Below, one piece after another: positions 1,810 through 44,499 of a stretch of 44,499 nt of DNA. Origin of the DNA: a virus; the IMG/VR virus record IMGVR_UViG_3300027806_000061, positions 1-44,499 of that record; one strand, written 5' to 3'. The first letter of the stretch is position 1. Every line of letters starts with the position of its first letter. The position numbers and the translations under genes are program-made. Under the pieces are notes generated by a model. The model saw only the letters and a program-made list of their open reading frames with translations. It was not told the DNA's origin and ran no database searches.

Positions 1810-1950
1810 TCATGCGCGAGACTTGAGCCAGTCGTTGATGACTGCTCGTGCCTCGCTCTTCTGCCGAGCCGTTGCCGTAGGTGACAGCGCCTCGTGGCAG
1901 ATCTGGAGTAGCCGCTCGAAGGCAGCCAGGAGTTCGTCGAGTTCTTTCAT
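1810..1950 (-). CDS. 46-residue helical protein
   Basis: Begins MKELDELLAAFERLLQICHEAL and ends DWLKSRA. It looks like two amphipathic helices joined by a Ser/Thr-rich turn (SPTATARQ). The ATG at 1950 overlaps the stop of the VWA protein gene as ATGA, so translation is probably coupled to it, and the two products may work together. The small size and acidic helix suggest a partner or adaptor protein, but no family is recognised. The intergenic UUCG hairpin follows the stop. Confidence 0.65.
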   Translation of the reverse strand: MKELDELLAAFERLLQICHEALSPTATARQKSEARAVINDWLKSRA

Positions 1951-3065
1951 GATGCGTCCATGGTGAAGTGGATGACGTCGCCGTACGGCGCCTCCACGTC
2001 AGTTGAGATGCACCACACGACAGGATAGGCGGGCTTGCTACTCGGGTCGAACGACGTGTAGCCGTCGGTCAGGCACACGAACACCTCGGGGTCGATGCCC
2101 TTGTCCTCGATGTACTTGAAACCAGCCTCCATGTCGGTGCCGCCGCCAGCGTAGAACTCCAGGGCGAACTCCTCACCGCGCTCGAAGGTGTCGTGCTTAC
2201 ACACCGAAGTGTCGACGTACAAGACGTGCACACGCTCCGGGCTGCACAGCTCGATGATGCGAGCGAGGTGGCCGTTGTAGTAGTTCAACTCACGCGGGCT
2301 GATGGAGCCGCTGACGTCGATCTGGATGACGACCTCGCCCATCTCGGCGACCTTGCCGGGGGAGGGCAGGTACTGCTCGAAGCGACGGTTGGGCCGCGCC
2401 CACGACACCTCGCCGCGCTTGAACGACGTCATGTAGCGCTCAAGGATCTCGTACCAGGGCGTGCCCGGGTCGATCAGGTCGGCGATGATCTTCTGGAGCG
2501 ATGCGGGCAGCTTGCCTTGCATCTTGGCAGCCTGGGCAGCCTGCGCGACTTCCACACGCGTCTCGGCGTCGATCTTGTCGGCCTCGTCGGCAGTGAGTGG
2601 TGCCCCACGCTCGATCAGGTCGTCGCCGATACCGCCGGGGCCGGGCACGCGTCCACTGCCGTCCTGCTCCTCGGGCAGCTTGTTGTAGATGGCGTCGACC
2701 GTGTCGTCCTTGGAGCCGGGCATGTCCACGCCGCCGGGGATGAAGTCACCGATCTTGGCGTCCTTGAGCATGTCGTTGATCCAGGCGTCGCCGGCGATGT
2801 TCCACCGCTTGGCCTGCCGGGCACCGCGCCGTGAGGCGTGCTGGCCGATGACGTGACCGACCTCGTGGGCGAGGAGGAACACGGCTTGGTCGACCGTGAG
2901 CTTCTCGATGAAGTCCGGGTTGTAGTAGATCTGACCGCGTTGGTCGACGGCGGCAGTCGGGATCGACTTGTCGGCGATCAGCTTGCGCTTCAACAGGATG
3001 GAGGCGAAGAAGGGGTGCTGTGTGACGATGGCGACCTTGGCCTTGTCGAGCTTGGTGATGGTCAT
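1947..3065 (-). CDS. metallopeptidase-like / VWA-like protein (DUF2201 type)
   Basis: 372 residues in two recognisable parts. The N-terminal part has a zinc-peptidase-like motif HEVGHVIGQH (HExxH at residues 67-71). The C-terminal part is a von Willebrand A-like domain: DVSGS at 250-254 is the MIDAS metal-binding motif, GGGTDM lies at 308-313 and LTDGYT at 332-337. This pairing is the layout of the DUF2201 family, whose members usually sit beside MoxR AAA+ ATPases. A MoxR ATPase is encoded 2.3 kb upstream in the same operon. Known MoxR/VWA pairs act in metal insertion or remodelling of target complexes; the role in phages is not established. The start ATG follows AAGGA at a good distance. Confidence 0.9.
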   Translation of the reverse strand: MTITKLDKAKVAIVTQHPFFASILLKRKLIADKSIPTAAVDQRGQIYYNPDFIEKLTVDQAVFLLAHEVGHVIGQHASRRGARQAKRWNIAGDAWINDMLKDAKIGDFIPGGVDMPGSKDDTVDAIYNKLPEEQDGSGRVPGPGGIGDDLIERGAPLTADEADKIDAETRVEVAQAAQAAKMQGKLPASLQKIIADLIDPGTPWYEILERYMTSFKRGEVSWARPNRRFEQYLPSPGKVAEMGEVVIQIDVSGSISPRELNYYNGHLARIIELCSPERVHVLYVDTSVCKHDTFERGEEFALEFYAGGGTDMEAGFKYIEDKGIDPEVFVCLTDGYTSFDPSSKPAYPVVWCISTDVEAPYGDVIHFTMDAS

Positions 3066-5079: not shown

Positions 5080-5349
5080 TCAGTTAGTAAGTACGAGGAT
5101 GGCCAGGGCCGTGGCCTTCGCCTCTTCGACGCTCTTGGCCTCGATCATGGTGGGCGGGGGGTTGCCGCCCGGGCGGTCGATGCGCCACTGCTGCATCCTG
5201 TCGGCCCAGTTTGCAGCGCGGGTCAAGCCCAGGTACGTGATGCGCCCCCGGATGCGCCAGTTGATCAAGTTGGCGTCCATGTCGTGCAGGTCCCACACTT
5301 CGCCGTCGCCGGTGTTGTATCTGGGGCTTCGCCACTCCAGGCGAGTCAC
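5080..5349 (-). CDS. 89-residue hypothetical protein, GTG start
   Basis: The GTG at 5349 overlaps the stop of the MoxR gene, so translation is probably coupled. A longer reading from 5415 would run into the ATPase gene and is less likely. The product (VTRLEWRSPRYNTGDGEVWDL) has a beta-rich N-terminal half with many Trp and Arg residues (INWRIRGRITYLGL), followed by a helix ending in AKATALAILVLTN. No function recognised. Confidence 0.65.
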   Translation of the reverse strand: MTRLEWRSPRYNTGDGEVWDLHDMDANLINWRIRGRITYLGLTRAANWADRMQQWRIDRPGGNPPPTMIEAKSVEEAKATALAILVLTN

Positions 5350-6350
5350 ATCAGCACCTCGGCGTTGCGCGTCGCCCACTCGGAGAACGAGCGGGTGTTC
5401 TGCACGTCCTTGCACAGCTTGAGCGAGTCCTTGACGGTCATGACGTCGAACTCCTTGGGCAGGCGGGCCGTGTAGGTCGTGATGCGGTCGAAGTTGTCCT
5501 TCGTGGCCTTGCGGGCCAGCGCACCCGTGATGGCGAAGCGCACTGCCGGGTCATCGGGCACGTCGGCACCCTTGGGGTCGAGCAGCAGCGCGTCGATGTT
5601 GGGCAGCGCACGGAAGATCTTGCGAAAGCCCGTGTACTCGGCAGCCGCGCCCTCACCGACCTCGCCGGCCACGTTGTCGAAGTAGAGCTGCTCGGGCAGC
5701 GAGTCGGGGATGTAGGACGTGCGCTCCCACGAGCGCGGCGTCGGGTTGCAGAAGCGGTTGGGGTCGAAGTCGCTGATGAGCCCGGGCCGGAAGCGCAGGA
5801 ACTGGATCAACTCCACAGGCCAGCCGGCGTTCAGTGCGTACTCGCACAGGTCGTCGAGGTTCTCCGTGAAGTCGAAGCGCCGCGTGCGGTTGGCGAGCTT
5901 GCTGGTGATGCGGTTGGCGCCGGACTTGTCCTCGGTGCGGTTACCCGTGGCGATGATGAACAGTTGCTCGGTCAGCGAGAGCTGGCCAGCGTGGCGGTCG
6001 TAGATGACGCGGCACAGCGCGTTCTGCATGGCCACGCTGCCGTCGCTGAGTTCCTCCAGGATGAGTGCTGCGCGACCTTGGCCCTGGCGGATGGAGTAGA
6101 ACTCCTTGGAGGCCAGCCAGTCGCTGTGGTCGCCCTTGGCGGAGGGCAAGCCCAGAATGTCCACGGGATCGCGCAGGCTGGCGTTGAACTCGATGACCTT
6201 GCCGGGCTCGATGCCCAACTCGCTCACGATCTCGCGGGCACAGGCGGACTTGCCACCACCGGGGGCGCCCAGGATGAACGGCACGACCTTGTTGCCGTTG
6301 GGGGCCTTGAACTGCTCCAGGATGGAGGCCTTGATGTGTTGATAGCGCAT
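5346..6350 (-). CDS. MoxR-type AAA+ ATPase
   Basis: 334 residues. Walker A is GAPGGGKS at 28-35, the Walker B-like ALILEE at 95-100, and the sensor-1 region IIATGN at 132-137, followed by NRTRRFDF. This is the MoxR/CobS branch of AAA+ ATPases, which usually work with a VWA-domain partner; the VWA protein at 1947-3065 in the same operon is the obvious candidate. Known relatives drive metal chelation or activate enzyme complexes. In phages the target is unknown. A GTTAGCAT promoter-like motif stands about 45 bases upstream of the start, so the cassette may have its own transcript. Confidence 0.92.
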   Translation of the reverse strand: MRYQHIKASILEQFKAPNGNKVVPFILGAPGGGKSACAREIVSELGIEPGKVIEFNASLRDPVDILGLPSAKGDHSDWLASKEFYSIRQGQGRAALILEELSDGSVAMQNALCRVIYDRHAGQLSLTEQLFIIATGNRTEDKSGANRITSKLANRTRRFDFTENLDDLCEYALNAGWPVELIQFLRFRPGLISDFDPNRFCNPTPRSWERTSYIPDSLPEQLYFDNVAGEVGEGAAAEYTGFRKIFRALPNIDALLLDPKGADVPDDPAVRFAITGALARKATKDNFDRITTYTARLPKEFDVMTVKDSLKLCKDVQNTRSFSEWATRNAEVLM

Positions 6351-7319: not shown

Positions 7320-7591
7320 GCGCCCACCCTGCGCAGGCTGCGGATGAAGGAGTCCGCTCTCGGGCTGTTGCGCTCCACGGTCTTGATGACGAAGCCCTGC
7401 GCCTTGGCGGCTTCGAGGAACACGGCTGCGTCGCAGTCCTCTTCGAGGTACAGCGTGTCCCCATCGTGGCTGCGGTAGCTGTAGCTGCTGATCTTCGGGA
7501 TGATGTGCAGGGCCACGGCGAGGGTGCGCGGGACTTCGAGCCATCCATGGCTCGGGTCGGAGTGGAAGTTGAGTTGGAGCAGGGTGCTCAT
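7316..7591 (-). CDS. 91-residue hypothetical protein
   Basis: Starts MSTLLQLNFHSDPSHGWLEV, with AAGGAGA just upstream of the ATG at 7591. The likely fold is a small alpha/beta unit: strand LLQLNF, helix RTLAVALHII, strands SSYSYRSHDGDTLYLEEDCD, and helix AAVFLEAAKAQGF. The segment GDTLYLEEDCDAAVFLEAAKAQG resembles phage proteins with a YLEEDxDA motif, whose function is unknown. It overlaps both neighbours by four bases. Confidence 0.75.
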   Translation of the reverse strand: MSTLLQLNFHSDPSHGWLEVPRTLAVALHIIPKISSYSYRSHDGDTLYLEEDCDAAVFLEAAKAQGFVIKTVERNSPRADSFIRSLRRVGA

Positions 7592-8073
7592 GGGGTCTCC
7601 TTGGTTGAGGGTTGGGGGTTGATTGCTATCGCTGCGGGCAGCAGCAACAGGGCGGCGTGGTTGTCTGGTTCGAGCCTGTAGAGGACTCTCACCGCTGTCG
7701 GGTCCATGTCCATGTATGGACCGCAGTCGTCCCAGCCGACCAAGGCTGCGATTGCGCCCGCGGCTGCGCCCGCGGCTGCGCCCCAGGCTGCGTCTCTGGC
7801 TGCGTCTCTGGCTGCGTCTATGACTGCTTCTCTGGCTGCGCCCGTGGCTGCGCCCCAGGCTGCGCCCCAGGCTGCGCCCCAGGCTGCGCCCCAGGCTGCG
7901 TCTCTGGCTGCGCCCGTGGCTGCGTCTATGACTGCGCCCGCGGCTGCGCCCCAGGCTGCGCCCCAGGCTGCGTCTCTGGCTGCGCCCCATCGGTCGGGGT
8001 GGTCTCGCAGGGACTTGAGGACTCTGTCTATCCTCGCAGCGTTGGGCAGGTGCGCCCATGGTGTGGCGGTCAT
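7588..8073 (-). CDS. alanine-rich tetrapeptide-repeat protein
   Basis: 161 residues. The first 35 (MTATPWAHLPNAARIDRVL, then RDHPDRWGAAR) are ordinary sequence. Residues about 30-110 are some twenty tandem four-residue units of the types WGAA, RDAA, AGAA, IDAA and TGAA. These would form a long alanine-rich helix or solenoid with Trp, Asp and Arg at regular spacing. The last 50 residues (GWDDCGPYMDMDPTAVRVL) are again normal. Similar AAWDAA-type repeat proteins are known in phages and actinobacteria without a firm function. The repeat DNA has a 12-bp period and could change copy number easily. Confidence 0.8.
   Translation of the reverse strand: MTATPWAHLPNAARIDRVLKSLRDHPDRWGAARDAAWGAAWGAAAGAVIDAATGAARDAAWGAAWGAAWGAAWGAATGAAREAVIDAARDAARDAAWGAAAGAAAGAIAALVGWDDCGPYMDMDPTAVRVLYRLEPDNHAALLLLPAAIAINPQPSTKETP
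7744..7992. repeat. 12-bp tandem repeat array inside the Ala-rich gene
   Basis: About twenty units of 12 bp read on the plus strand as GCTGCGCCCCAG, GCTGCGTCTCTG, GCTGCGCCCGCG, GCTGCGCCCGTG or GCTGCGTCTATG. Four identical GGCTGCGCCCCA units stand in a row from 7847 to 7894. Being a multiple of three, copy changes keep the frame. Confidence 0.9.
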
Positions 8074-8288
8074 GGACCCGGCTCTCCGGCGTGAGTGCTG
8101 CGCGTCCTGGCCAGGACCTCGTCGAAGGTGGGCAGGCGTTGCATGGTGTCGATGAACTTGTAGGACTGACACACGGCGCAGCCCGGCTCGAAGTCCGGGC
8201 ACCGAGGTCCTGCGATGCGTGCGAGGGTGTGCAGTCCCTCACGGATGCGCTGCTTGCGCAGCGCGTTGTTGCGGGTGCGGATGCTCAT
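8070..8288 (-). CDS. 72-residue protein with Cys cluster
   Basis: Begins MSIRTRNNALRKQRIREGL, a basic helix, then has Cys30, Cys37 and Cys40 in GPRCPDFEPGCAVC, which with a nearby His could bind zinc. AGGAG lies ahead of the ATG. It overlaps the start of the Ala-repeat gene and the end of the upstream gene by four bases each. A small nucleic-acid-binding protein is possible, but I recognise no family. Confidence 0.7.
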   Translation of the reverse strand: MSIRTRNNALRKQRIREGLHTLARIAGPRCPDFEPGCAVCQSYKFIDTMQRLPTFDEVLARTRSTHAGEPGP

Positions 8289-9217: not shown

Positions 9218-9838
9218 TTAGGTGTTGGTGAGGATGTGCTTGACCATCAGTGTGGTCTGGAGCACCTCCAGTGAGGTGTCCATCAGGGGGATGATGCGGT
9301 GCGCGGAGTCATCATCGGGGGAGGGGTAGTCAGTGACTACCCATGCGAACAACTCGCGGCTCAGGGTGATCTGGGCGAGCGTGCTGGTGTACCAGTCAGG
9401 ACCATCGCCGTCGTACCATGCGTCGGGCTCGGAGTAGCACACTCGGCACAGGGTCCAGGATTCTCGGCGCTCGGGCTGCCACACCAGGGTGCCTTCGCCC
9501 AGGCGCTTGAGCCACTGATCGTTCATGCGGACGCGGCGGCGGCGGTCCTCTTCATACTCGTCCTGCGCAGCCAACTCCTTTCGCACCCACTCGTACATCG
9601 CGGCGTATTCAGCCTCGCGCTTCTCCACCTGGGCGGAGTGCAACTCGGCCAGCAGGCCACGGTCCTGCTCACGCAGGAAGGACGCCCATTCACGCTTTCC
9701 GCCTTGACGGCGCAGGTACGTACGCACGTTGGCTAGGCGCCTGCGACCCGATCGGGGGGCGCAGCACGGGCACCCCATGCCGCCGGGACCGACGACTGCG
9801 TGGCGCTTGTAGACAGATGACTTGGCGCTTGTGTGCAT
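9218..9838 (-). CDS. 206-residue protein with two Cys pairs; first gene of the left operon
   Basis: Starts MHTSAKSSVYKRHAVVGPGG. Cys residues 23, 25 and 26 (GCPCC) and 131 and 134 (CRVC) could form one zinc site. The region between them, residues 30-115, is a long charged, probably coiled-coil helix with basic ends (RRRLANVRTYLRRQ, EEDRRRRVRMND). The C-terminal 70 residues are acidic and mixed. It is the first gene leftward from the repeat region, so it may be expressed early. A CTAACGT motif lies just upstream and no ribosome site is clear, so the mRNA may be nearly leaderless. Family unknown. Confidence 0.75.
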   Translation of the reverse strand: MHTSAKSSVYKRHAVVGPGGMGCPCCAPRSGRRRLANVRTYLRRQGGKREWASFLREQDRGLLAELHSAQVEKREAEYAAMYEWVRKELAAQDEYEEDRRRRVRMNDQWLKRLGEGTLVWQPERRESWTLCRVCYSEPDAWYDGDGPDWYTSTLAQITLSRELFAWVVTDYPSPDDDSAHRIIPLMDTSLEVLQTTLMVKHILTNT

Positions 9839-9871
9839 GGTGTGTATACCCACGTTAGGGTGTGGAGGGGG

Positions 9872-10215
9872 TAATAAGACAAGCAATTAGACAAACGGGG
9901 GGTGGGCTTGTCTTAATGCAAAAGGCCAAAACACACTAGCGGGTAGTGTGGGCTGCTACATTTTTGTGCAATTAGACAATTAGACAACTTTTGGCGGAGG
10001 ATCAGCGCCTTTTTGGGGGTCTCGGAATTTGCGCGGCGCGTGGCCGCTTTCAGACCCGTCGTCGTCTCACGTACACGTGGTCCTAAATGTTGTCTAATTG
10101 TCTAATTGTCTAATTACAAGATGGAAATCATCGTGACACACTAGCGGGTAGTGTGTTTTGGGGGTCTTGGTAATTAGACAACTAATAAGACAAAAACGGA
10201 TCTTGTCTTATTACA
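9872..10215. repeat. AATTAGACAA-type AT-rich iteron-like repeats
   Basis: In this GC-rich genome the gap holds many copies of AATTAGACAA or its complement TTGTCTAATT. They are at 9885-9894, a double copy at 9970-9987, a triple tandem TTGTCTAAT copy at 10090-10117, and 10171-10180. Variant TAATAAGACAA or TTGTCTTATT copies lie at 9872-9882, 10184-10195 and 10203-10213. Direct and inverted orders are mixed. Such AT-rich repeats are typical of origins or of operator arrays. Confidence 0.8.
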
Positions 10216-10301
10216 TGGGGGCACACTACCCGCTAGTGTCCCCGAAATTCAGCGCCCCGAAGGGCCCGACGACACACTACCCGCTAGTGTGTCACGATCA
10301 T
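10127..10301. repeat. 29-bp inverted repeat around the palindromes
   Basis: The stretch 10127-10155 and the reverse complement of 10273-10301 agree at 28 of 29 bases; each arm holds one full palindrome plus ATSATCGTGA. A third partial copy, ATGATCGTGA, lies at 10324-10333. The arms enclose 117 bases that include another palindrome and TTGTCTAATT-type repeats. Confidence 0.8.
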
Positions 10302-10382
10302 TTTCGGAAATCCGTCGGACTCCATGATCGTGACGGACTGGTGCGCGATGAGTGCTCCGCGGGCCCCTTTGCCCGCAACACA

Positions 10383-10661
10383 CTACCGGCTAGTGTTCCT
10401 GTCGTTCTTGGCGTTCCAGAACTTGCCGGGGCCGGGCTCGCGGAACTGGTTGGGGTATCGGAACCCGTTAGCGCATGCGGCCTGATAGATGCCGGGGCTC
10501 TTGATCTTGGAGCCCGGACGGGTGCCAGAGTAGCCCGGGCGTGCGCTGGTTTGGGGGATGCGGGCCGCTTGCACGGCGTTGAAGTCGAGCGCAGCGGGGA
10601 GTCTCGGGCCGCGCACACTAGCGGATAGTGTGCCGGCTGGTACTCTGTGGATTGTGGGCAT
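10383..10661 (-). CDS. basic 92-residue protein flanked by palindromes
   Basis: Starts MPTIHRVPAGTLSASVRGPR at 10661, with CAGGAGG just upstream, a good ribosome site. The protein is basic and rich in Pro, Gly and Arg, with SARPGYSGTRPGSKIKSPGI and then RYPNQFREPGPGKFWNAKN. One palindrome copy lies just upstream of the ribosome site, one encodes residues TLSASV near the N-terminus, and one supplies the TAG stop codon. This suggests self-regulation or a repeat that has spread into the gene. Family unknown; a small nucleic-acid-binding or virion protein is possible. Confidence 0.55.
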   Translation of the reverse strand: MPTIHRVPAGTLSASVRGPRLPAALDFNAVQAARIPQTSARPGYSGTRPGSKIKSPGIYQAACANGFRYPNQFREPGPGKFWNAKNDRNTSR

Positions 10662-10714
10662 GATGCCTCCTGGTTGGGACACTAGCGGATAGTGTCGGGG
10701 TTTGTAAACCTACT

Positions 10715-10747: not shown

Positions 10748-11278
10748 TCACTCGACGTCAGCGCCGTCGGTCTTGATCGAGGCCATCACACGCTGGGCGT
10801 GATAGATGGACACTTGCTGGTTGAGGATCTCCAGGAGTTCGCGGTTCCGCACGGACACGCTGGCGTCCTTGACCATGCCCTCCATGCGCTTCATGAACTT
10901 GTCGACCGCCTCGGACACGTCGAACACGGACACGATGGGCGCCTCGGGCTTGGCATCCTCCCAGGGCAGGGCGAGGAGGCGCTCACGCAGGGCGGCGCGG
11001 TCTTCGGCCTTCATACCCTTGGCGCGCTCGGAGTCGAACCCGAACTTGTCCTTGCCCTTGGGGATGAACATGCAGGTGTTCTTCTCGAACCAAGCCCGCA
11101 GGGAGGCCCGGCGCATGCCCTTGCCGATCGACTCCACGAGTTCGTTCGCCGGGGTGACGTTGCCGTGGTCGACGGCGTGCAAGGCGCACTCCACCGCCAC
11201 GGCTTGGACGTCTTTGGTCAACTTGGCCGCGGCCTTGCCGATGCGACCGATGGCTTGCATGAGTTGCTTGATATCCAT
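10748..11278 (-). CDS. hypothetical phage protein, 176 residues
   Basis: I chose the ATG at 11278 (MDIKQLMQAIGRIGKAAAKL) because GGAG lies about 9 bases upstream; an earlier ATG at 11335 has no site. The protein is helical and charged: an N-terminal basic helix, then NVTPANELVESIGKGMRRAS followed by LRAWFEKNTCMFIPKGKDKF, and an acidic C-terminus. The middle part resembles phage proteins of unknown role that carry a FEKxTxFIPKxKxKFGFD-like block. It stands alone between two control regions with its own terminator hairpin, so it is likely regulated separately, perhaps early. Confidence 0.75.
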   Translation of the reverse strand: MDIKQLMQAIGRIGKAAAKLTKDVQAVAVECALHAVDHGNVTPANELVESIGKGMRRASLRAWFEKNTCMFIPKGKDKFGFDSERAKGMKAEDRAALRERLLALPWEDAKPEAPIVSVFDVSEAVDKFMKRMEGMVKDASVSVRNRELLEILNQQVSIYHAQRVMASIKTDGADVE

Positions 11279-11675: not shown

Positions 11676-11700
11676 AGGGGGCTGTTAATCACTGCCCCCT
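11676..11700. other. AGGGGGC/GCCCCCT hairpin
   Basis: A perfect 7-bp stem with an 11-base AT-rich loop (TGTTAATCACT). There is no T tract after it on either strand, so it is not a standard terminator. A binding site for terminase or a regulator is possible. Confidence 0.5.
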
Positions 11701-11739
11701 GTACCATAGGCGGCGCTGATACTCGACCCCCCGGGGTGG

Positions 11740-11767
11740 CCCCACCCCCGCCCCCACCCGGCCCCCC
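11740..11767 (-). other. putative G-quadruplex
   Basis: On the minus strand five runs of 6, 3, 5, 5 and 4 G follow each other, with loops of only 1-2 bases. This is a textbook dense quadruplex motif. In the plus strand it is a C-rich tract. It lies about 460 bases upstream of the leftward gene 10748-11278 and 170 bases before the rightward operon. Confidence 0.7.
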
Positions 11768-11900
11768 TGGCTTACGGGCTGCGCTCACGACGACCCGACA
11801 CCCACGACATACACACGTTACGCAGTACCTACTACTCCGTCGCACCCCCCTCCCAACCAGAAAAACCCACCCAGACCACATACACACGTCGCGCACCACG

Positions 11901-12071: not shown

Positions 12072-12233
12072 GTGAAGCGCCACAACCTCTTCCTGCCCGA
12101 CGAAATGGTCGCTGAGGCCCGAAAACTGGCCCAAAAGCGTGGGGTTGCGCTCGCCGACGTCATCCGAACGGCCCTGGACAAGTACCTGCAAGCCGTCAGG
12201 CGCGCTGCGGAGGCGAAAAATGGGTCCCAGTGA
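12072..12233 (+). CDS. ribbon-helix-helix (CopG/Arc-like) DNA-binding protein
   Basis: 53 residues starting at GTG 12072 (VKRHNLFLPDEMVAEARKLA). The layout is that of a ribbon-helix-helix monomer: a short strand RHNLFLP, helix A (DEMVAEARKLAQKRG) and helix B (ALADVIRTALDKYLQ), then a basic tail. Such proteins dimerise and bind inverted repeats in operators. The phage palindromes at 9932-10695 are plausible targets, which is an inference only. The gene overlaps the small terminase start by 14 bases. The ribosome site is weak, so the GTG start is a best guess. Confidence 0.7.
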   Translation: MKRHNLFLPDEMVAEARKLAQKRGVALADVIRTALDKYLQAVRRAAEAKNGSQ

Positions 12234-36354: not shown

Positions 36355-37689
36355 ATGGCAGCAGGAAGCATCGCCGCCGGGCTGGTTGACGGCTACGTGC
36401 GCGGGTTGGGCCTGCGCCGCCAGATGGATCGTGAAGACGAAGAGAAGAAGGCCCGCGAGGAAGAGCGCGCCTACATGCGCGAGCAGCGCGATTTTTTGCG
36501 CCAGCAGCAGCAGGCTGACGCCGAAATCGACCGCAGGCTGTCCGCCGTGCCCACCACGACCGAGAAGTGGGGCCAGGACTACGAGTGGGCTGCGAAGAAC
36601 AACGCGCCCATGCGCGACGACGAGGGCAACGTCATGCCGGGGGCGGTCTCTACACCGCGCTCCTACAGAGACGTTGCCGCTGACCAAGCTGCTGCGGTTC
36701 GTGGCATCCATGGTCGCCGTGGTGTGGCCATGGCCAACCAGCTCCAGCAGTTCGTCAACTCTGAGGACGACCGGCGCGAAGCCGGCATCGACCGCGAGCG
36801 CACCCGCAAGCTTGGCGACCTTCAGTTCTCAGCCGCAGAGATCGCCAACCGGCAAGCGGTGGCGCGAGAGGCTTTGCAGCGGGCTCGCATGGCGTTCACC
36901 CGCGGGGATCTCAATGGCGCGTTGAAACTCATGTCCAACGGGTACAAGGCGATCCCCGACGGTATGGATCTGGTCATCACCAACGACGGTATGGTCGGTC
37001 GCGCAGGCCCCGACGCCAAGTGGGTGGACCGCCCTGTTCCCATCACCAAGGAGGCCGTCGGAGCCATGCTCGACGGCGCGTTGGAGATCCTCGACCCATC
37101 CACCTGGGGGCAGCGGAAGAAGATCGAACAGGACGCCCTCAAGATCACCAACGACAGCACATACCAGACGGGAATGTTGGGGATCTATGGCGCCAGGAAC
37201 GCTTTGGACCGCGACGTGTTCAACGCGCAGAACGCCGGCGGCATGTTCAAACGGCCGCCCACGGCAGCGGAGTCCAATCCCGCGCTGCGTACGCAGGGCG
37301 AACTCTTGAGCAAGTTTCTCGCGCTCCCCGAAGACCAGAAGAGCGGTCCTGTCGGTCGGGGGCTGCTGCGCGACATTTCCGTGGCTCGCGGGCAGATGGA
37401 GCGCATCAACCTGGACGGCGAAAACCGCCCACGCGACCAAGTCAAGAAGGAGTGGGCGGCCGTGGAGCTGGAGCTTCTGAAGCAAGGCGCTAGGCCCGAA
37501 GAGATCCGTCAGCAGCAGTCGGCGTTCTACGCCCGCCGTGGGGTCGCACCTTCTGCGGCCGAGGACGCCCTTCGCGCCGGCAAGGACACCAAGGGGAAGC
37601 CGCTCACAGCAGCCGATGTCGCGGAGTTCAACCGGCGCTACCCCGCCAGTGCGGTCGACCCTGCGGAACTGTCTTGGCTCAAGAGATAA
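36355..37689 (+). CDS. internal virion protein
   Basis: 444 residues starting MAAGSIAAGLVDGYVRGLGL, with AAGGAG upstream. A short hydrophobic start, then a strongly charged coiled coil (DREDEEKKAREEERAYMREQ), helical middle and C-terminal domains. This pattern of a short amphipathic N-terminus, coiled coil and all-helix body, right before a giant ejection protein, is that of phage inner-core proteins. It probably stacks on the portal inside the capsid and is ejected with the DNA. Confidence 0.8.
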   Translation: MAAGSIAAGLVDGYVRGLGLRRQMDREDEEKKAREEERAYMREQRDFLRQQQQADAEIDRRLSAVPTTTEKWGQDYEWAAKNNAPMRDDEGNVMPGAVSTPRSYRDVAADQAAAVRGIHGRRGVAMANQLQQFVNSEDDRREAGIDRERTRKLGDLQFSAAEIANRQAVAREALQRARMAFTRGDLNGALKLMSNGYKAIPDGMDLVITNDGMVGRAGPDAKWVDRPVPITKEAVGAMLDGALEILDPSTWGQRKKIEQDALKITNDSTYQTGMLGIYGARNALDRDVFNAQNAGGMFKRPPTAAESNPALRTQGELLSKFLALPEDQKSGPVGRGLLRDISVARGQMERINLDGENRPRDQVKKEWAAVELELLKQGARPEEIRQQQSAFYARRGVAPSAAEDALRAGKDTKGKPLTAADVAEFNRRYPASAVDPAELSWLKR

Positions 37690-37698
37690 GGGTCTGAT

Positions 37699-40600
37699 AT
37701 GGCCAGCGTCTGGGACGAGTTCGAGGGGCCGACCAGGGCCAAGCGTGGCGCTGAGCGCCCTGTCGCCCGCAGCGTCTGGGACGAGTTCGAGGGGCCTGTT
37801 GCCAAGCCCAAGTCCACGACTCGCAACCCACTGGAGTTCGCCAACGACTTCGTCGTGACCGGGGTGAACTCGGCGCTTGGTATCGGCAAGGCTGTCAGCG
37901 ACTTCGTCAGTGTTGACAACCCCGTTTCGCGGGGCCTTCAGTACGTCATCGACGAGGGCGAGAAGACCTACTCCGACTCGGTGCGACAGGCCCGTGAGGA
38001 CCGCAGCCGGGCTATTGACGCGGGTGGCTGGGACGCTGTCGGTGGTGTGGGCCGGTACGTGTTGGAGAACCCCCTCCAGACGGTGGCTGAGATCGGGGGC
38101 AACTTCGGTCCGTTCGGTGCGGCCATCAAGGGCACCAAGGCTCTGGCCACTGCGGCCAAGCTCGGTGAGAAGGGTGTAGCGCGATCCGGTGTCGGCGCGG
38201 GTGTGGTTCTGGGGGGTGCAGCCGCAGGTGGAGACGCCGCCGGCGACGCGTATGAGCAAGTCATGCGCAGCCCCAACATCGACCCGGCGGTCAAGGAAGA
38301 GCTGGCTCGGCGAGCAGCTCGTGAGGCTTCGGTCGTGCCCGCGCTGGTCGGCGGCGCAACGGGCGCTCTCGGTATCGAGCGAATCCTTGCGGGCACTCGC
38401 GGCTTGCGCAACGCGCCCGTGCTGCGCACCGGCCTCTACGAGGCGACGCAAGAAGGCCTTGAAGAGGCCATCACCAAGGGATCCGCCAACCTCGCAGCCC
38501 GCCAGTACGACCCGACCATCGACCCGATGAAGGGCGTTGTGGGCTCTGCCGCCATGGGTGCCGTCATGGGCGGTGGCACCGGCCTTGGTGTGGGCTACCT
38601 GAACAACCGCGCCGTCGAGTCTGACTTGCTGCGCAGGGACAAGGCCATCGCCGACGCAGAGCGGGTGCGGCAGGAACAACTCGCTCCGATCCTCGGCATG
38701 ATCCGCCCGGACTCGGGGCTCGGCACGCAGGAAGTCATCGACCAGCAACTGGGTATCTCCCCGGCGCTTGCTGCCAAGGAGCTGGAGAAGCAGCGCAAGG
38801 CCCGCGAGGCCGACATCGCAGCAGCGTTCGACGCCCCGTCGGGTACCCGTGTCGCAGGCGAAGATGGCGTGGAGCGCGAGCTGACTGCCATCGAGGCCTC
38901 GCTACTGGCCCAAGGGCTGCCCACCACGCCGACTCCGGCGCCGGCTCCGCCGCCCGCTGCCTCCAAGGTCTTCAGCGCCGAGGAGATGGAGCTGATCGAA
39001 ATGCGCGTCCCGCCCACCGGCAAGGCGTTGGATCTCCTCGCCGACATCAGGGCACTAGGGCTGGACCTGGAATCGCTTCCGGGGGTCACCGCAGCGATGG
39101 CCGATCGCAGATACAAAGAGGCCAAGAAGCTGCTGGGCGCCGCTGCTGCCGAGTCCAACCGGGCGCCTGTTGCGCCTGTTGCGCCTGTTGCGCCTGCGGC
39201 TCCCGCCGTTACGCCTGCTGCGCCTACGCCCACTGTTGCCCCCACCCCTGCTGGTGGGCTGCGTGTCGTCAAGGGCACCCCGCCTGCGGCTGCCCCAACC
39301 CCATCCGTGGCCCAAGCGCCCGGAGTCACGTCCCTGCCTGTACTGGAGGCCCCCGCCGATGTCCAAGCCCCTCAAGCCGTCCAAGCAGAAGCGCCGGCAG
39401 AAGCTGCCGTGGCAGCCACCGCCGCACAAGGCGCCGCGCCCGCAGCCGAGCCTGTAGTCCAGCGAAAGCGCCGAGTCGACCCGGCCGCCCTGGCACAGTC
39501 GCAGGCCTTCGTTGCTCCTGAGCCTGTTGCTGAGGAAGAGCAGACTGCCGAGGCTCCGGCCAGCCAGGGGTTCGCTGAAGACGAAAACGTCAGCTTGGAC
39601 GTTGCCCGGCTGACGGGCCAGCGAGGGGTGGCCGACGCCATCACCGGCGAGCTTGAAGGCACCCGCACCGACACCCAAGTGGACCTGACCCCGGAGGAGT
39701 TCGAGCAGCTTCTGTCTGAGCGGTTCAAGGATTCCAAGGACCCGAAGCGTGACCGCGAGATCATGGCGGCGTATACCGCCCAGCTCAAGGGGGGCAAGAA
39801 GGGCGTCCGCGAAGAGATCGCGCTGAAGATCGCCGCCCAGTTCGGCATCACGCCGGGGGCAGTGCGCAAGGTGGGCAACCCGCAGGAGTTGGTGCGCGTC
39901 GGCGAGTCTCTGGGGTTCTCTCCGGAGCAGGTGCTGTCTACCTTGGGGGTGGTCAGCGACTCAAAGAAAGCTGCGGGCGCTTCTGAAGATGAGGCCCCAG
40001 ACCCTACTGTCGCGGCGCTCAAGAAAGCCCAGAAGCTCGCCGAGGCGAGGCTGCAAGCAGCCATCGCCGACCCGACCAGGAAGCAACTGCGCGATGCAGT
40101 GGCGGCCATCGACGCTCAAATGGCGAAGGCGCCCGCTGCCCAGCAAGCAACGCTCAAGCAGCAGCGTGATGAGCTGCAAAAGCAGCTCCAGGCCAAGTTC
40201 GACTCCCAGCTTCAAATCGAAGAGGAGGTCGAGGGCATCAAGCAGGAACTCGCCTCCATGGCGGAGTCCCGCGCCACCGCTTCGGAGTCCAAGCTGTCAG
40301 GTGCTGTGCGCGAGCTTGGTGTAGAGACCGCGGAGGGTGACACCCTCGGGTTCGGCTACGACGACAACCGTGAATGGGAGAAGTCCAGCTCTCGGGGCAA
40401 CCGTGACGGCGATGTCCTGCTGGCCATCCAGAAGCGGGTGGACGCGATGCGCGACACCATCGCGGCCCTGGAAGCCCAAGGGCAGGCCGAAGCGGCGCAG
40501 GCGATTCGTGAATCGCTGGTCGCGGAGACCGAGAAACTCAATGCTGCGGTAGCTAGGCTCAACAAGCCCGCCGCCGCGCCTGCGCGGGAACTCAGCGAAG

Positions 40601-43600
40601 ACCTGAAGGCCGCCAAGGCGAAGTTCAAGGCTGCGGGCCTCGACGTCACCAAGATGGAGCCCGATGAGCTTCAGCTCCTGCGGGGCGAGGCTGAGCGGTT
40701 CAAGAACCAAGCACTCATCAGCAAGATCGACGCCCGCCTGCGCGACGTCGGGGTGGAAGTACCTGCCCCCGCAGCGGCCCCGGCTCCAACGCCGGCAGCC
40801 GCTCCCGCTCCCGCTCAAGAGCCCAAGGTCCGGGTGGTCAAGAAGGCCGCGGCCGCAGCCCCCACGCCGGCTGCGCCCGTTGACAAGATCCTGACGCCCA
40901 CCGAGCAGGCCGGGCAGGCGTGGGACCGAGCCGCCAACTCCATCCCCGGCGCACCCAAGTGGGCCGACTTGCCGCCGGCTACACGCAAGGAGTTCGTGGC
41001 GTTCGGCGAGAACAACTGGACCCGCCAGGATGTCGTGACGTTGATGCAACGCAGTGCGCCGCGAGCCATGCGCTCTCCGGGCTTCACGGGCATGGACGGC
41101 GACGGCAATCGGTTCACGACTCAGTCAGTGAACTTCAACGATCTGCTGAAGTTCGACGGCATCGGCCGCGCAGTGCGGCACTTGACCAACAACGGGTTGC
41201 AGGACTCCATCAAGGCAGTCCAGGCTTGGTACATCACCAATGACCTCGTAAGCTGGGACGCGATCTTCGCGGAGATCGACGGCAAGCCTGCCGTGGTGTT
41301 CAGCGCCGACGCACTGGCGCAGACCTCCCGCGCCCTGATCAGCTTCACCCACGAGATCGGCCACGCAGTCGATGAGACGCACCTGGGCAACTGGACGTTC
41401 TCCAGCGAGCCCGAGATGAACCTGTCGCTGCGCGGCGGGGTGGTGCGCCCAATGGGAGCTGTGGCTACCGAGCTGCTGGATCACTTCGAGAACGGCGACT
41501 CTGCGCTGTCGGAGCTGCTGCAATACCCGCTGGACCTCGACGGCGAAGTCGGTCGCAGCGCCTCTCGCATCCGAGAAGAGCTGTTCGCCCAGCTCTGGGC
41601 GTTCTCCTCGCTAGGCCCGGGGATGCAGTTCCTGCGTGATAACCTGCCCGCATCCGCGGCATTCATGGAGTCTGTGCATGCGCAAGTCCGACAAACCTAC
41701 GCCGCCCAAGCCGGCGCGAACCAAGGTGCTCAGCCAGGACAAGTTCAAGGTGGGCCCCAAGCTGGATCAGTTCCTCAAGCAAGAGCCTCCCGCCAAACCC
41801 AAGCAGGGCTGAGCCGGCTGCCGGCGGAGCTGGAAAAGCCCGTCAGCACCATCACCAACACGCTGCGCGACGTCGGGAACACGGCGCTCAACCTGCTGAC
41901 GTTCACCGAGGACGTCATCAACCGCGCCATCGAGCTGGGCGTCAACGCCGCAGGCGATCTGCGCCGGGTCTACCAGGAGCGGGCTGCCCTCACGGGCAAG
42001 CTGGAGCGCGAAGTCGAGCGCGTGGCCGACCTGTACAACAAGGTGCCCGAGGCCGAGCGCGGCACGGGGCCTGCGTCCGTCAACCAGTTCCTCTACGACG
42101 CCACCCGCGAGGGCAAGTGGGGCTTCAAGCCCGACTGGCGCAAGGGCGCGAGCGCCAACGTCAAGATCGACGCCGAGACGAAGCAGCGCTTTGATGCGCT
42201 GTCCAAGGAGTCTAAGGCCCTGGTGCGGGCGGTCTTCACCCATGGCGACGAGGTGCTGTCGCTCAAGAAGCAGACCGTCATCGACGCGACCAACTCCGAG
42301 TACGACGCCCTGATCGCGGCGGCCAACAAGGCTGGGGACTCCAAGAAGGCTGCCCGTCTGACGGCGGACAAGACCGACCAGCTCAAGCGGTTCACGTCGC
42401 TCTTCGAGTTGCAGGAGTTCCGCCCATACGCGCCGCTCAAGCGCTTCGGTGACTACGTGGTCATCGCCAAGTCCCAGGCTTACCTGGACGCTGACGAAAA
42501 GGCCCGAGCCAAGCTGGAGAACTCGGGCGACGACTACCATGTCTCATTCGCCGAGTCGGCCGCTGCCGCCCGCGAGTTGGTGGGCCAGCTCCAGAAGCAG
42601 GGCGCCTTCGCCGAGGTGGTGTTCCGCCAGAAGGAAGCCGTCCAGCAGACGATGTTCGGCGGCATGCTCTCGGCTTTCAACAAGCTGCGCTCGGAGCTGG
42701 ACTCTGAACTCGCCGACGCCGCCCCGGGCGAGAAGAACGCACTGCGGGCTGCCCGCAAGGTGGTGGGCGAGCTGTACCTGTCGTCCCTGGCCGAGACCTC
42801 GGCCCGCAAGTCCGAGATGCGCCGCCGTGGCGTGGCTGGCGAGATCGACATGCTGCGCTCCTTCACCTCCCAGGGACGGGCGGACGCGCAGTTCATCGCC
42901 GGGGCCAAGTACAACAGCCAGACCCTGGACGCATTCAACGCCATGCGCAAGGAGGTGAAGTCGGGCGACGCCGAGACGCAGAACACCAAGTCTGGTGTGT
43001 TCAACGAGCTGCTCAAGCGTCACACGCAGTCCATGGACTACGACCCGACGCCCATCGCCTCCAAGCTGGCGCGGCTGTCCTCTGTCTGGTATCTGGCCAC
43101 GAGCCCGGCGTACTACTTCCAGAACCTGACCCAGCCGTTCATGATGTCCATGCCGATCATGGCCGGGCGGCACAACTACCTGAAGGTGGGCAACGCTCTG
43201 GTCAAGGCCTACATGGACTTGGCTCCCATGTTCAAGACGGCCAAGCTGGGAGAGCAGTTCAACTACGCGGCCGCGCCCCAGGATGTCCAGGTTGCCATCT
43301 CCAAGCTGGTGGACCGTGGGCGCATCGACATCGGCATGGACACCGACCTGGGCCAGTTCCGCCTCGAAGGCGAGGGCCCGGTCAAGGACCGCTGGAACAA
43401 GATCGACCGCGGCATCAGCAACGTCGCCCAGAAGCTCGAAGCCGTCAACCGGCTGGCCACGGCCATCGCGGCCTATCGCATGGAGCTTGCCAAAGAGGGC
43501 AACGTCGACAAGGCGCTCCAGTACGCCGACGACATCATCACGCAGACCCACGGCGACTACACGACAGGCAACGCGCCCAGAGTGTTCAACACCGCCGGCG

Positions 43601-44499
43601 GCAAGGTGGCCTTGCAGTTCCGCAAGTTCCAGCTCATCCAGCTCACGCTGCTGGCCAAGCTGGTGAACGACTCCGAGTTCCTCAAGCAGGGCTTGTTCGC
43701 AAAGACCGAAGACGCCAAGGCCACCCGGGCGGCGCTGCGATTCCTGCTGGGCCACACCGCTGTCATGGCCGGCGCCATCGGCCTGCCCGGGTTCGCTGCC
43801 ATCTCCTGGGCGCTCGGTGCGATGTTCGGTGGGGGCGATGATGAGCCGTTCAACACGGAAGAGAAGCTGCGCGAGTGGATCGGCAACGATCAAGTGGCCA
43901 CCCTCATCACCCGTGGCGTGCCCGCTGCGCTCCCTTGGAACCTCGGTGTGGACTTGTCCGGCAAGCTCGGTATGGGCAACACGCTGTCGCTGCTGCCGTT
44001 CAACGACCTGGACCTGTCCAGCCGCTCAGCAGCGGAGTCGGTCTTGGTGTCTGCTTTCGGCGGGCCGGCGGGCGGGCTGGGGCTGCGGGCTCTGGACGGG
44101 CTGAACCTCATGCGCGACGGGCAGTACCACCGGGGCTTGGAGCAGCTACTGCCCACGGGCTTTTCCAATTTCCTGAAAGCGTACCGGCTCAACAACGAGG
44201 GCTTGACGCGGCGCAACGGCGACGAGCTGATCTCCCCGGACGAGATCTCCGGCATGGAGCAGTTCTGGCAGGCCATCGGCTTCCAGCCCACCCAGCTCGC
44301 CGAGCGCCAGTTCCGCGACCGGGTCAAGCGCGAGGCGGACGACAAGTTCCAGGGCAAGGCGGAGAAGATCCGCAACGCCTACCTGCGGGCCAAGGATGAC
44401 CCGGACGCCCGGGCCGAGGCTCGGGAGCGTTGGATGGCGCTGCAAGACGCCCGCGAGGAAGCCGGCTACCGGCGCCAGCCCCTGTCGTCCCTGATGAGG
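37699..44499 (+). CDS. giant ejection / polyvalent protein, PLxRFG type, C-terminus off window
   Basis: At least 2267 residues, no stop before the window edge. It opens with two SVWDEFEGP copies (residues 3-11 and 26-34), a Gly/Ala-rich hydrophobic region (110-310) that may enter membranes, an Ala/Pro linker (485-590), coiled coils (750-1010), a second linker (1020-1055), a zinc peptidase-like HEIGHAVDE (H1218, E1219, H1222), and PLKRFG (1579-1584), the mark of PLxRFG phage proteins. Hydrophobic GAIGLPGFAAISWALGAMFG lies near 2020-2040. Giant proteins of this kind are packed in the capsid and ejected; the peptidase may act on the host envelope. Around residues 1327-1371 the codon bias switches to another frame (see 41678-41812). 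Confidence 0.88.
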   Translation, partial: MASVWDEFEGPTRAKRGAERPVARSVWDEFEGPVAKPKSTTRNPLEFANDFVVTGVNSALGIGKAVSDFVSVDNPVSRGLQYVIDEGEKTYSDSVRQAREDRSRAIDAGGWDAVGGVGRYVLENPLQTVAEIGGNFGPFGAAIKGTKALATAAKLGEKGVARSGVGAGVVLGGAAAGGDAAGDAYEQVMRSPNIDPAVKEELARRAAREASVVPALVGGATGALGIERILAGTRGLRNAPVLRTGLYEATQEGLEEAITKGSANLAARQYDPTIDPMKGVVGSAAMGAVMGGGTGLGVGYLNNRAVESDLLRRDKAIADAERVRQEQLAPILGMIRPDSGLGTQEVIDQQLGISPALAAKELEKQRKAREADIAAAFDAPSGTRVAGEDGVERELTAIEASLLAQGLPTTPTPAPAPPPAASKVFSAEEMELIEMRVPPTGKALDLLADIRALGLDLESLPGVTAAMADRRYKEAKKLLGAAAAESNRAPVAPVAPVAPAAPAVTPAAPTPTVAPTPAGGLRVVKGTPPAAAPTPSVAQAPGVTSLPVLEAPADVQAPQAVQAEAPAEAAVAATAAQGAAPAAEPVVQRKRRVDPAALAQSQAFVAPEPVAEEEQTAEAPASQGFAEDENVSLDVARLTGQRGVADAITGELEGTRTDTQVDLTPEEFEQLLSERFKDSKDPKRDREIMAAYTAQLKGGKKGVREEIALKIAAQFGITPGAVRKVGNPQELVRVGESLGFSPEQVLSTLGVVSDSKKAAGASEDEAPDPTVAALKKAQKLAEARLQAAIADPTRKQLRDAVAAIDAQMAKAPAAQQATLKQQRDELQKQLQAKFDSQLQIEEEVEGIKQELASMAESRATASESKLSGAVRELGVETAEGDTLGFGYDDNREWEKSSSRGNRDGDVLLAIQKRVDAMRDTIAALEAQGQAEAAQAIRESLVAETEKLNAAVARLNKPAAAPARELSEDLKAAKAKFKAAGLDVTKMEPDELQLLRGEAERFKNQALISKIDARLRDVGVEVPAPAAAPAPTPAAAPAPAQEPKVRVVKKAAAAAPTPAAPVDKILTPTEQAGQAWDRAANSIPGAPKWADLPPATRKEFVAFGENNWTRQDVVTLMQRSAPRAMRSPGFTGMDGDGNRFTTQSVNFNDLLKFDGIGRAVRHLTNNGLQDSIKAVQAWYITNDLVSWDAIFAEIDGKPAVVFSADALAQTSRALISFTHEIGHAVDETHLGNWTFSSEPEMNLSLRGGVVRPMGAVATELLDHFENGDSALSELLQYPLDLDGEVGRSASRIREELFAQLWAFSSLGPGMQFLRDNLPASAAFMESVHAQVRQTYAAQAGANQGAQPGQVQGGPQAGSVPQARASRQTQAGLSRLPAELEKPVSTITNTLRDVGNTALNLLTFTEDVINRAIELGVNAAGDLRRVYQERAALTGKLEREVERVADLYNKVPEAERGTGPASVNQFLYDATREGKWGFKPDWRKGASANVKIDAETKQRFDALSKESKALVRAVFTHGDEVLSLKKQTVIDATNSEYDALIAAANKAGDSKKAARLTADKTDQLKRFTSLFELQEFRPYAPLKRFGDYVVIAKSQAYLDADEKARAKLENSGDDYHVSFAESAAAARELVGQLQKQGAFAEVVFRQKEAVQQTMFGGMLSAFNKLRSELDSELADAAPGEKNALRAARKVVGELYLSSLAETSARKSEMRRRGVAGEIDMLRSFTSQGRADAQFIAGAKYNSQTLDAFNAMRKEVKSGDAETQNTKSGVFNELLKRHTQSMDYDPTPIASKLARLSSVWYLATSPAYYFQNLTQPFMMSMPIMAGRHNYLKVGNALVKAYMDLAPMFKTAKLGEQFNYAAAPQDVQVAISKLVDRGRIDIGMDTDLGQFRLEGEGPVKDRWNKIDRGISNVAQKLEAVNRLATAIAAYRMELAKEGNVDKALQYADDIITQTHGDYTTGNAPRVFNTAGGKVALQFRKFQLIQLTLLAKLVNDSEFLKQGLFAKTEDAKATRAALRFLLGHTAVMAGAIGLPGFAAISWALGAMFGGGDDEPFNTEEKLREWIGNDQVATLITRGVPAALPWNLGVDLSGKLGMGNTLSLLPFNDLDLSSRSAAESVLVSAFGGPAGGLGLRALDGLNLMRDGQYHRGLEQLLPTGFSNFLKAYRLNNEGLTRRNGDELISPDEISGMEQFWQAIGFQPTQLAERQFRDRVKREADDKFQGKAEKIRNAYLRAKDDPDARAEARERWMALQDAREEAGYRRQPLSSLMR
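41678..41812 (+). CDS. 44-residue overlapping reading frame inside the giant gene
   Basis: In the +1 frame relative to the giant gene, MRKSDKPTPPKPARTKVLSQ continues to a Lys/Pro-rich end and a TGA at 41810-41812. GGAG stands about eight bases before the ATG. In this stretch the third bases of the overlapping frame are mostly G or C, as in real genes here. In the giant frame they are mostly A or T, and its product is a Gln/Ala/Gly string with many CAA codons otherwise rare in the window. So the selected frame here seems to be the small one, or the giant gene was once two genes. Confidence 0.5.
   Translation: MRKSDKPTPPKPARTKVLSQDKFKVGPKLDQFLKQEPPAKPKQG

Follow-up and report, generated by a model that had tools for sequence, protein, structure and literature searches.

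The question raised by this locus is what a tight cluster of palindromes does among the early genes of a phage, and which protein might read it. The window, meaning the whole stretch of DNA analyzed, is the 44,499-base IMG/VR virus record IMGVR_UViG_3300027806_000061. This record is incomplete, and the full genome is about 59-60 kb. Two related contigs, G004 (58.7 kb) and G001 (47.9 kb), align to the window in reversed, permuted order and add about 14 kb encoding DNA polymerase A, a PD-(D/E)XK exonuclease, an SNF2 helicase, a Gam-like protein and a DUF927 primase/helicase.

The genes form two arms that run apart from about 11.3-11.9 kb of the window. The late arm, on the plus strand, carries the genes for a ribbon-helix-helix (RHH) protein, terS, terL, portal, capsid and tail, and the early arm lies on the minus strand. 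The palindrome array is inside the early arm, about 1 kb from the divergence point, in a large non-coding gap past the first early genes. The first early gene (10748-11278, minus strand) encodes a 176-aa protein of PHROG 1448, a family of unknown function. A small basic ORF of 92 aa without a family lies at 10383-10661 on the minus strand, with a 61% homolog in G004, and the next early gene downstream of the array (9218-9838, minus strand) has a TACACAC-type site directly upstream of its ATG. A long C-rich tract at 11680-11800, ahead of the late promoter, is present upstream of the RHH gene in every relative, and in most of them it is preceded by two TAGGCnnCCTTGATA-like elements. Elsewhere in the window, a 12-base tandem repeat encodes an Ala/Trp-rich repeat protein with DAAWGAA units (7588-8202, minus strand). 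A MoxR-like ATPase and VWA/metallopeptidase (DUF2201) pair at 1947-3065 and 5346-6350 (minus strand) is kept in all near-complete IMG/VR relatives compared and was not detected in Pseudomonas phage Rollin. The last late gene (37699-44499) is very large; it is open to the end of the record and reaches 2608 aa in G004 (L122:258-8084).

A scan of the whole 44.5 kb record found seven copies of ACACTA-nCSGn-TAGTGT, all within 9933-10695, and no further copy outside the array at one mismatch. The first-pass annotation had described seven near-identical palindromes in about 760 bases, and this description held: the 17-bp core ACACTA-N5-TAGTGT is exact in 7/7 sites, and the random scatter across the genome that would have spoken against a functional array was not seen. 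The corresponding 19-mers start at 9932, 10137, 10222, 10273, 10379, 10614 and 10678. At up to three mismatches, the 19-mer gave 7 matches compared to 0.81 expected, and 0/100 shuffles reached 7. The largest dyad family per 1 kb, counted with 6-bp arms and a gap of 0-12 within 1 kb, had 7 members versus 1-2 in 50 dinucleotide shuffles. The three center types reported earlier are correct, strand apart: GCGGG/CCCGC occurs four times, GCGGA twice and CCGGC once. Together with the sites of relatives, these centers reduce to n-C-S-G-n, a hidden symmetric core, and the whole site is therefore a 17-bp palindrome with an odd center. The distances between the centers of the window sites are 51-235 bp.

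The sites were compared with those of close relatives. Palindrome arrays in the viral scans were confined to four related IMG/VR contigs (G001-G004), at a single locus in each and with up to nine sites per record; the remaining matches in these scans were mostly single and chance-like. In G004, all nine sites, one of them with a mismatch, are at one locus. A scan of a genome-contig collection gave one single match and no array, and a DNA search of a phages collection gave no match. Site 1 (ACACTAGCGGGTAGTGT, 9933-9949) is conserved in position in L008/G004, as are site 2 (ACACTAGCGGGTAGTGT, 10138-10154), site 3 (ACACTACCCGCTAGTGT, 10223-10239) and site 4 (ACACTACCCGCTAGTGT, 10274-10290) in G004. 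These four keep their spacing between the window and G004 (51/52, 85 and 205/208 bp). Site 5 (ACACTACCGGCTAGTGT, 10380-10396) overlaps the stop codon of the small ORF in the window and is found at the homologous stop codon in G004. Site 6 (ACACTAGCGGATAGTGT, 10615-10631), inside the small ORF, has been lost by substitution in G004. Site 7 (ACACTAGCGGATAGTGT, 10679-10695) lies just upstream of the small ORF, ahead of its RBS, and an indel of about 30 bp removes its G004 counterpart.

The conservation of these sites is selective. When the window is compared with G004, the dyad core matches at 70/70 positions and its free n positions at 8/15, compared to 208/397 (52%) in the rest of the array region. 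Across 16 sites, the arms and the central C.S.G were near-invariant, agreeing in 31/32 cases at one arm position and in 32/32 at all others. This is what a dyad core under selection looks like, and the pattern is that expected of a protein-binding site. The earlier proposal of a clustered multi-site target for a symmetric DNA-binding protein is supported by this pattern, with the palindromes as putative binding sites.

A second repeat, not mentioned in the first-pass annotation, accompanies the palindromes. Ten TTGTCT[A/T]ATT iterons (TTGTCTAATT) at 9873-10212, in both orientations, are intermingled with the palindromes on the left side of the array and have an 8-bp period in the tandem blocks. 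They comprise two copies, TTGTCTAATT-GC-TTGTCTTATT, at 9872-9894 (minus strand), two tandem copies with the 8-bp period at 9969-9987 (minus strand), three tandem copies of TTGTCTAAT with the same period at 10090-10115 (plus strand) and three copies at 10171-10212, two on the minus strand and one on the plus strand. The A+T fraction at the iterons is up to 0.54-0.62, compared to 0.36 record-wide, and the iterons are identical at 66/88 positions between the window and G004. Just beyond them, at 9840-9853, is GTGTGTATACCCAC, which differs by a single change from the GTGTGTATACACAC dyad seen in relatives.

Searches with the primase and TerL found about 25 further relatives (primase 54-60%; TerL 82-86% where present). 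The PHROG 1448 protein was tried as a synteny anchor, and it was present in just 2/28 relatives; TerL was used instead. The 12 relatives whose region could be read have an array at the syntenic position that is built from different iterons and sites; they include those with TerL at 82-86%, whose arrays combine other iteron variants with GTGTGTATACACAC or ACATACACAC. Their iterons drift in sequence (TTAGACAA, TTATCCAA, TAATCCAA, ATATCCAA and TTAATCCA) and often occur as three tandem copies with an 8-bp period, and this three-copy block is at the same place in many relatives. The window dyad is replaced in the distant relatives by (GTGTG)TATACACAC or CATACACAC sites, and G009 has diverged ACATAC-type sites instead. 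No such array was seen in two TerL relatives, G031 and G032. The array is common in the group, which is not to say universal. In G033, the corresponding non-coding region (L274:7220-8030) contains inverted groups of a 24-bp repeat, AATCTACTCAxTCAAACATACCCG.

A third version of the array was found in Pseudomonas phage Rollin (OR577172; TerL 37-38%), in which four AAAAGGTAGnAACTTnCTACCTTTT palindromes and 8 of the 9 genomic TTGCATA repeats lie within 700 bp. The gene beside this array encodes an N-terminus that is RHH-like by eye. The circular Rollin record opens inside its own palindrome array (L128:1-497), probably because the repeats broke the assembly, and the approximately 9 kb around the array have almost no annotated genes. 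We found no literature on phage Rollin and, among open-licence papers, no description of such a region in this phage group.

Taken with the conserved layout, these repeats are best explained by a bipartite control region that combines a replication origin with early-gene control, the array being its dyad half. We give this reading a probability of about one half; it is the most likely one, with a purely transcriptional operator array ranked next. The phage would be a podovirus-like virus of about 60 kb, with the array between its first early genes and near the early/late divergence. One component would be the iteron set, the 8-bp-period TTGTCTAAT copies in tandem and inverted arrangement in AT-rich DNA, whose reader is probably a phage DNA-binding protein, for example a winged-helix protein that co-occurs with the iteron type. 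The other would be the 17-bp ACACTAnCSGnTAGTGT dyads; a symmetric dimer encoded by the phage would contact the ACACTA of both halves and the C.S.G at the center. Such a dimer, on 7-9 sites over about 760 bp, may fold the region or coat it and control the timing of iteron use; when bound, it may also repress or time the neighboring early genes. We infer the dimer binding, the origin function and the identity of the binder from the arrangement and conservation of the repeats. The earlier interpretation thus stands in part: a symmetric multi-site target and an operator cluster or part of an origin are supported as a reading, but the RHH protein as binder and a partition site are not.

Phage theta-type origins with repeated initiator sites include the lambda ori with its O iterons and the P4 ori and crr octamers; the P4 iterons are also octamers, and the P4 initiator is a primase/helicase. 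The window array resembles these origins in its clustered short tandem repeats in AT-rich non-coding DNA among early and replication genes, a layout shared by the relatives, and the same arm of a relative encodes PolA, the SNF2 helicase, the DUF927 primase/helicase and exonucleases. Unlike them, it mixes two unrelated repeat classes and has no recognized initiator gene adjoining it. The repeats of iteron origins are in or next to the initiator gene, but the DUF927 primase/helicase is about 19 kb away in G004; a closer initiator may have gone unrecognized. A 322-aa conserved protein adjoining the primase was considered as an initiator, and no family of known function matched it. DnaA boxes were not found at up to one mismatch. 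The GC-skew extremes were inconsistent between relatives as a marker of the array and are confounded with gene direction.

Another possible explanation is that the dyads are plain transcriptional operators that silence or time the early genes, with the iterons as a separate element and no origin. In relatives, the syntenic dyad GTGTGTATACACAC immediately precedes ATG codons and, at the late promoter, adjoins TANAAT; the window site at 10679 is just before an RBS, and the G004 site at 36827 is about 31 bp before a start. However, most window sites are not close to a start codon, a consensus scan found no sigma-70 promoters that would place the sites as operators, and the positionally conserved core sites sit among the iterons in non-coding DNA. 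We therefore regard operators alone as possible, but less probable than an origin with early-gene control.

Known families of phage regulatory repeats were also compared with the array. The SAS/ESAS elements of Cluster K mycobacteriophages occur at translation starts in many places of the genome (PMC3203893). Like the repeats described here, they form two classes, one of them inverted, that are kept within a phage group and vary in sequence by subcluster, but the window sites are packed in one locus and are mostly not at starts. Only the site at 10679 is just before a called start, and this reading was rejected. In Cluster A mycobacteriophages, stoperators lack symmetry and are spread across the genome (PMC6550527, PMC9283540). 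They too occur in each genome as many copies of a site for one phage regulator, but the window sites are symmetric and confined to one locus. The arms ACACTA...TAGTGT resemble those of NrdR boxes. A pair of NrdR boxes consists of 16-bp boxes with a 4-bp center, 15-16 or 25-26 bp apart (PMC12051234). The window sites are 17 bp long with GC-rich 5-bp centers at center distances of 51-235 bp, and the NrdR reading was discarded.

A further reading, which we hold more tentatively still, is that the region is a module with two repeat classes and swappable winged-helix readers that is exchanged between lineages while its position is kept. Here, the TTAGACAA iterons would go with an HTH_28-like protein and the CACACTA dyads with a MerR-like protein. 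The winged-helix protein that goes with the iterons, encoded outside the window at L124:5662-6021 (AlphaFold2 mean pLDDT 78), is found in six records, all with TTAGACAA iterons, and five near-complete records have neither. G019 is the supported sister of the window lineage, and the two lineages with the winged-helix protein are not sisters, so this association has some independent support. The MerR-like protein, also encoded outside the window (L124:4814-5233), is 139 residues long and combines a winged helix with an extended C-terminal helix, and its gene is about 8 kb further along the early arm from the array. Outside G001 and G004 it was seen just once, in an 8.8-kb fragment that does not include the array region. 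Since both the palindrome and this protein define a single lineage, their co-occurrence counts as one event. If the swappable module is right, each lineage would have a private address for replication or control, in effect an incompatibility or immunity type.

The identity of the putative dyad reader can be considered separately. The first-pass annotation had proposed the RHH protein, a 53-aa CopG/Arc-like core gene product at the start of the late operon (12072-12233, plus strand), and its RHH identity is supported by matches to an Arc-like PHROG (2.8e-5) and to CopG in the PDB (0.0013). RHH proteins bind short inverted or tandem repeats, dyads with about 11 bp between half-sites are possible targets of the CopG and Arc type, the gene is conserved about 1.4 kb from the array, and strand position 4 is H in the window lineage and W in others. 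Nevertheless, the strand residues K2, R3, N5 and F7 are invariant in nine orthologs of an aligned set with 48-98% identity to the window protein, and six of those nine are from phages without the palindrome. We take R3, N5 and F7 to be the contact side by analogy with CopG R4/T6/T8 and Arc Q9/N11/R13; the reading residues therefore do not covary with the site. The RHH promoter region also has a different site. It contains no ACACTA palindrome, and instead carries (GTGTG)TATACACAC, with ATACACAC at 11809-11816 and 11880-11887 on the plus strand. Nearly every genome, the window among them, has at least one TACACAC site at the late promoter region ahead of the RHH gene, and in several relatives such a site abuts a TANAAT box. 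The invariant residues and the TACACAC sites at its own promoter suggest that the RHH protein more likely reads TACACAC than the dyad, and we consider it an unlikely binder of the palindromes.

For the origin and early-control reading, the best available candidate for the dimer would instead be the lineage-specific MerR-like protein, with its winged helix and predicted coiled coil. This is a guess, and the structural model of the protein is weak (mean pLDDT 66), with its nearest solved folds in the MerR family (Foldseek E 0.017 at best). A PDB sequence search with this protein gave only repeat or coil noise.

Three other readings are improbable. Multi-copy dyads at one locus resemble parS or RacA-type clusters, and the weak Foldseek matches of the MerR-like candidate include RacA, but the partition-like, centromere-type site suggested earlier is disfavored: Pfam and PHROG scans of nearly all early and large late proteins found no ParA/ParB, and there is no sign of a plasmid-like prophage, with no integrase or lysogeny repressor recognized. 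A pac site for the start of packaging, close to terS and comparable with the repeats of P1 pac, would fit with terS/terL at 1.5-3 kb and with the mutually permuted contigs of the group; the array, however, is beyond the first early gene, among early genes, and iteron arrays are unlike known pac sites. Least probable of all are RNA hairpins in early transcripts since, although each palindrome could fold into a stem of 6-7 bp capped by a 5-nt loop, the arms are near-invariant with no compensatory changes, the C.S.G of the loop is invariant too, which pairing does not require, and scans for terminators and Rfam families gave no match.

Clustered origin repeats and clustered operators are already known kinds of element. 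What appears new here is that two repeat classes are paired in one place and that, from lineage to lineage, their sequences change while the position stays. Since the dyad sequence is lineage-specific, the array has probably changed its sites together with the cognate protein. If the origin and early-control reading is right, the array would mark the control center (probably the origin) of a group of phages that have scarcely been annotated by function, and such centers would keep their place and layout while the vocabulary of binding sites swaps between lineages.
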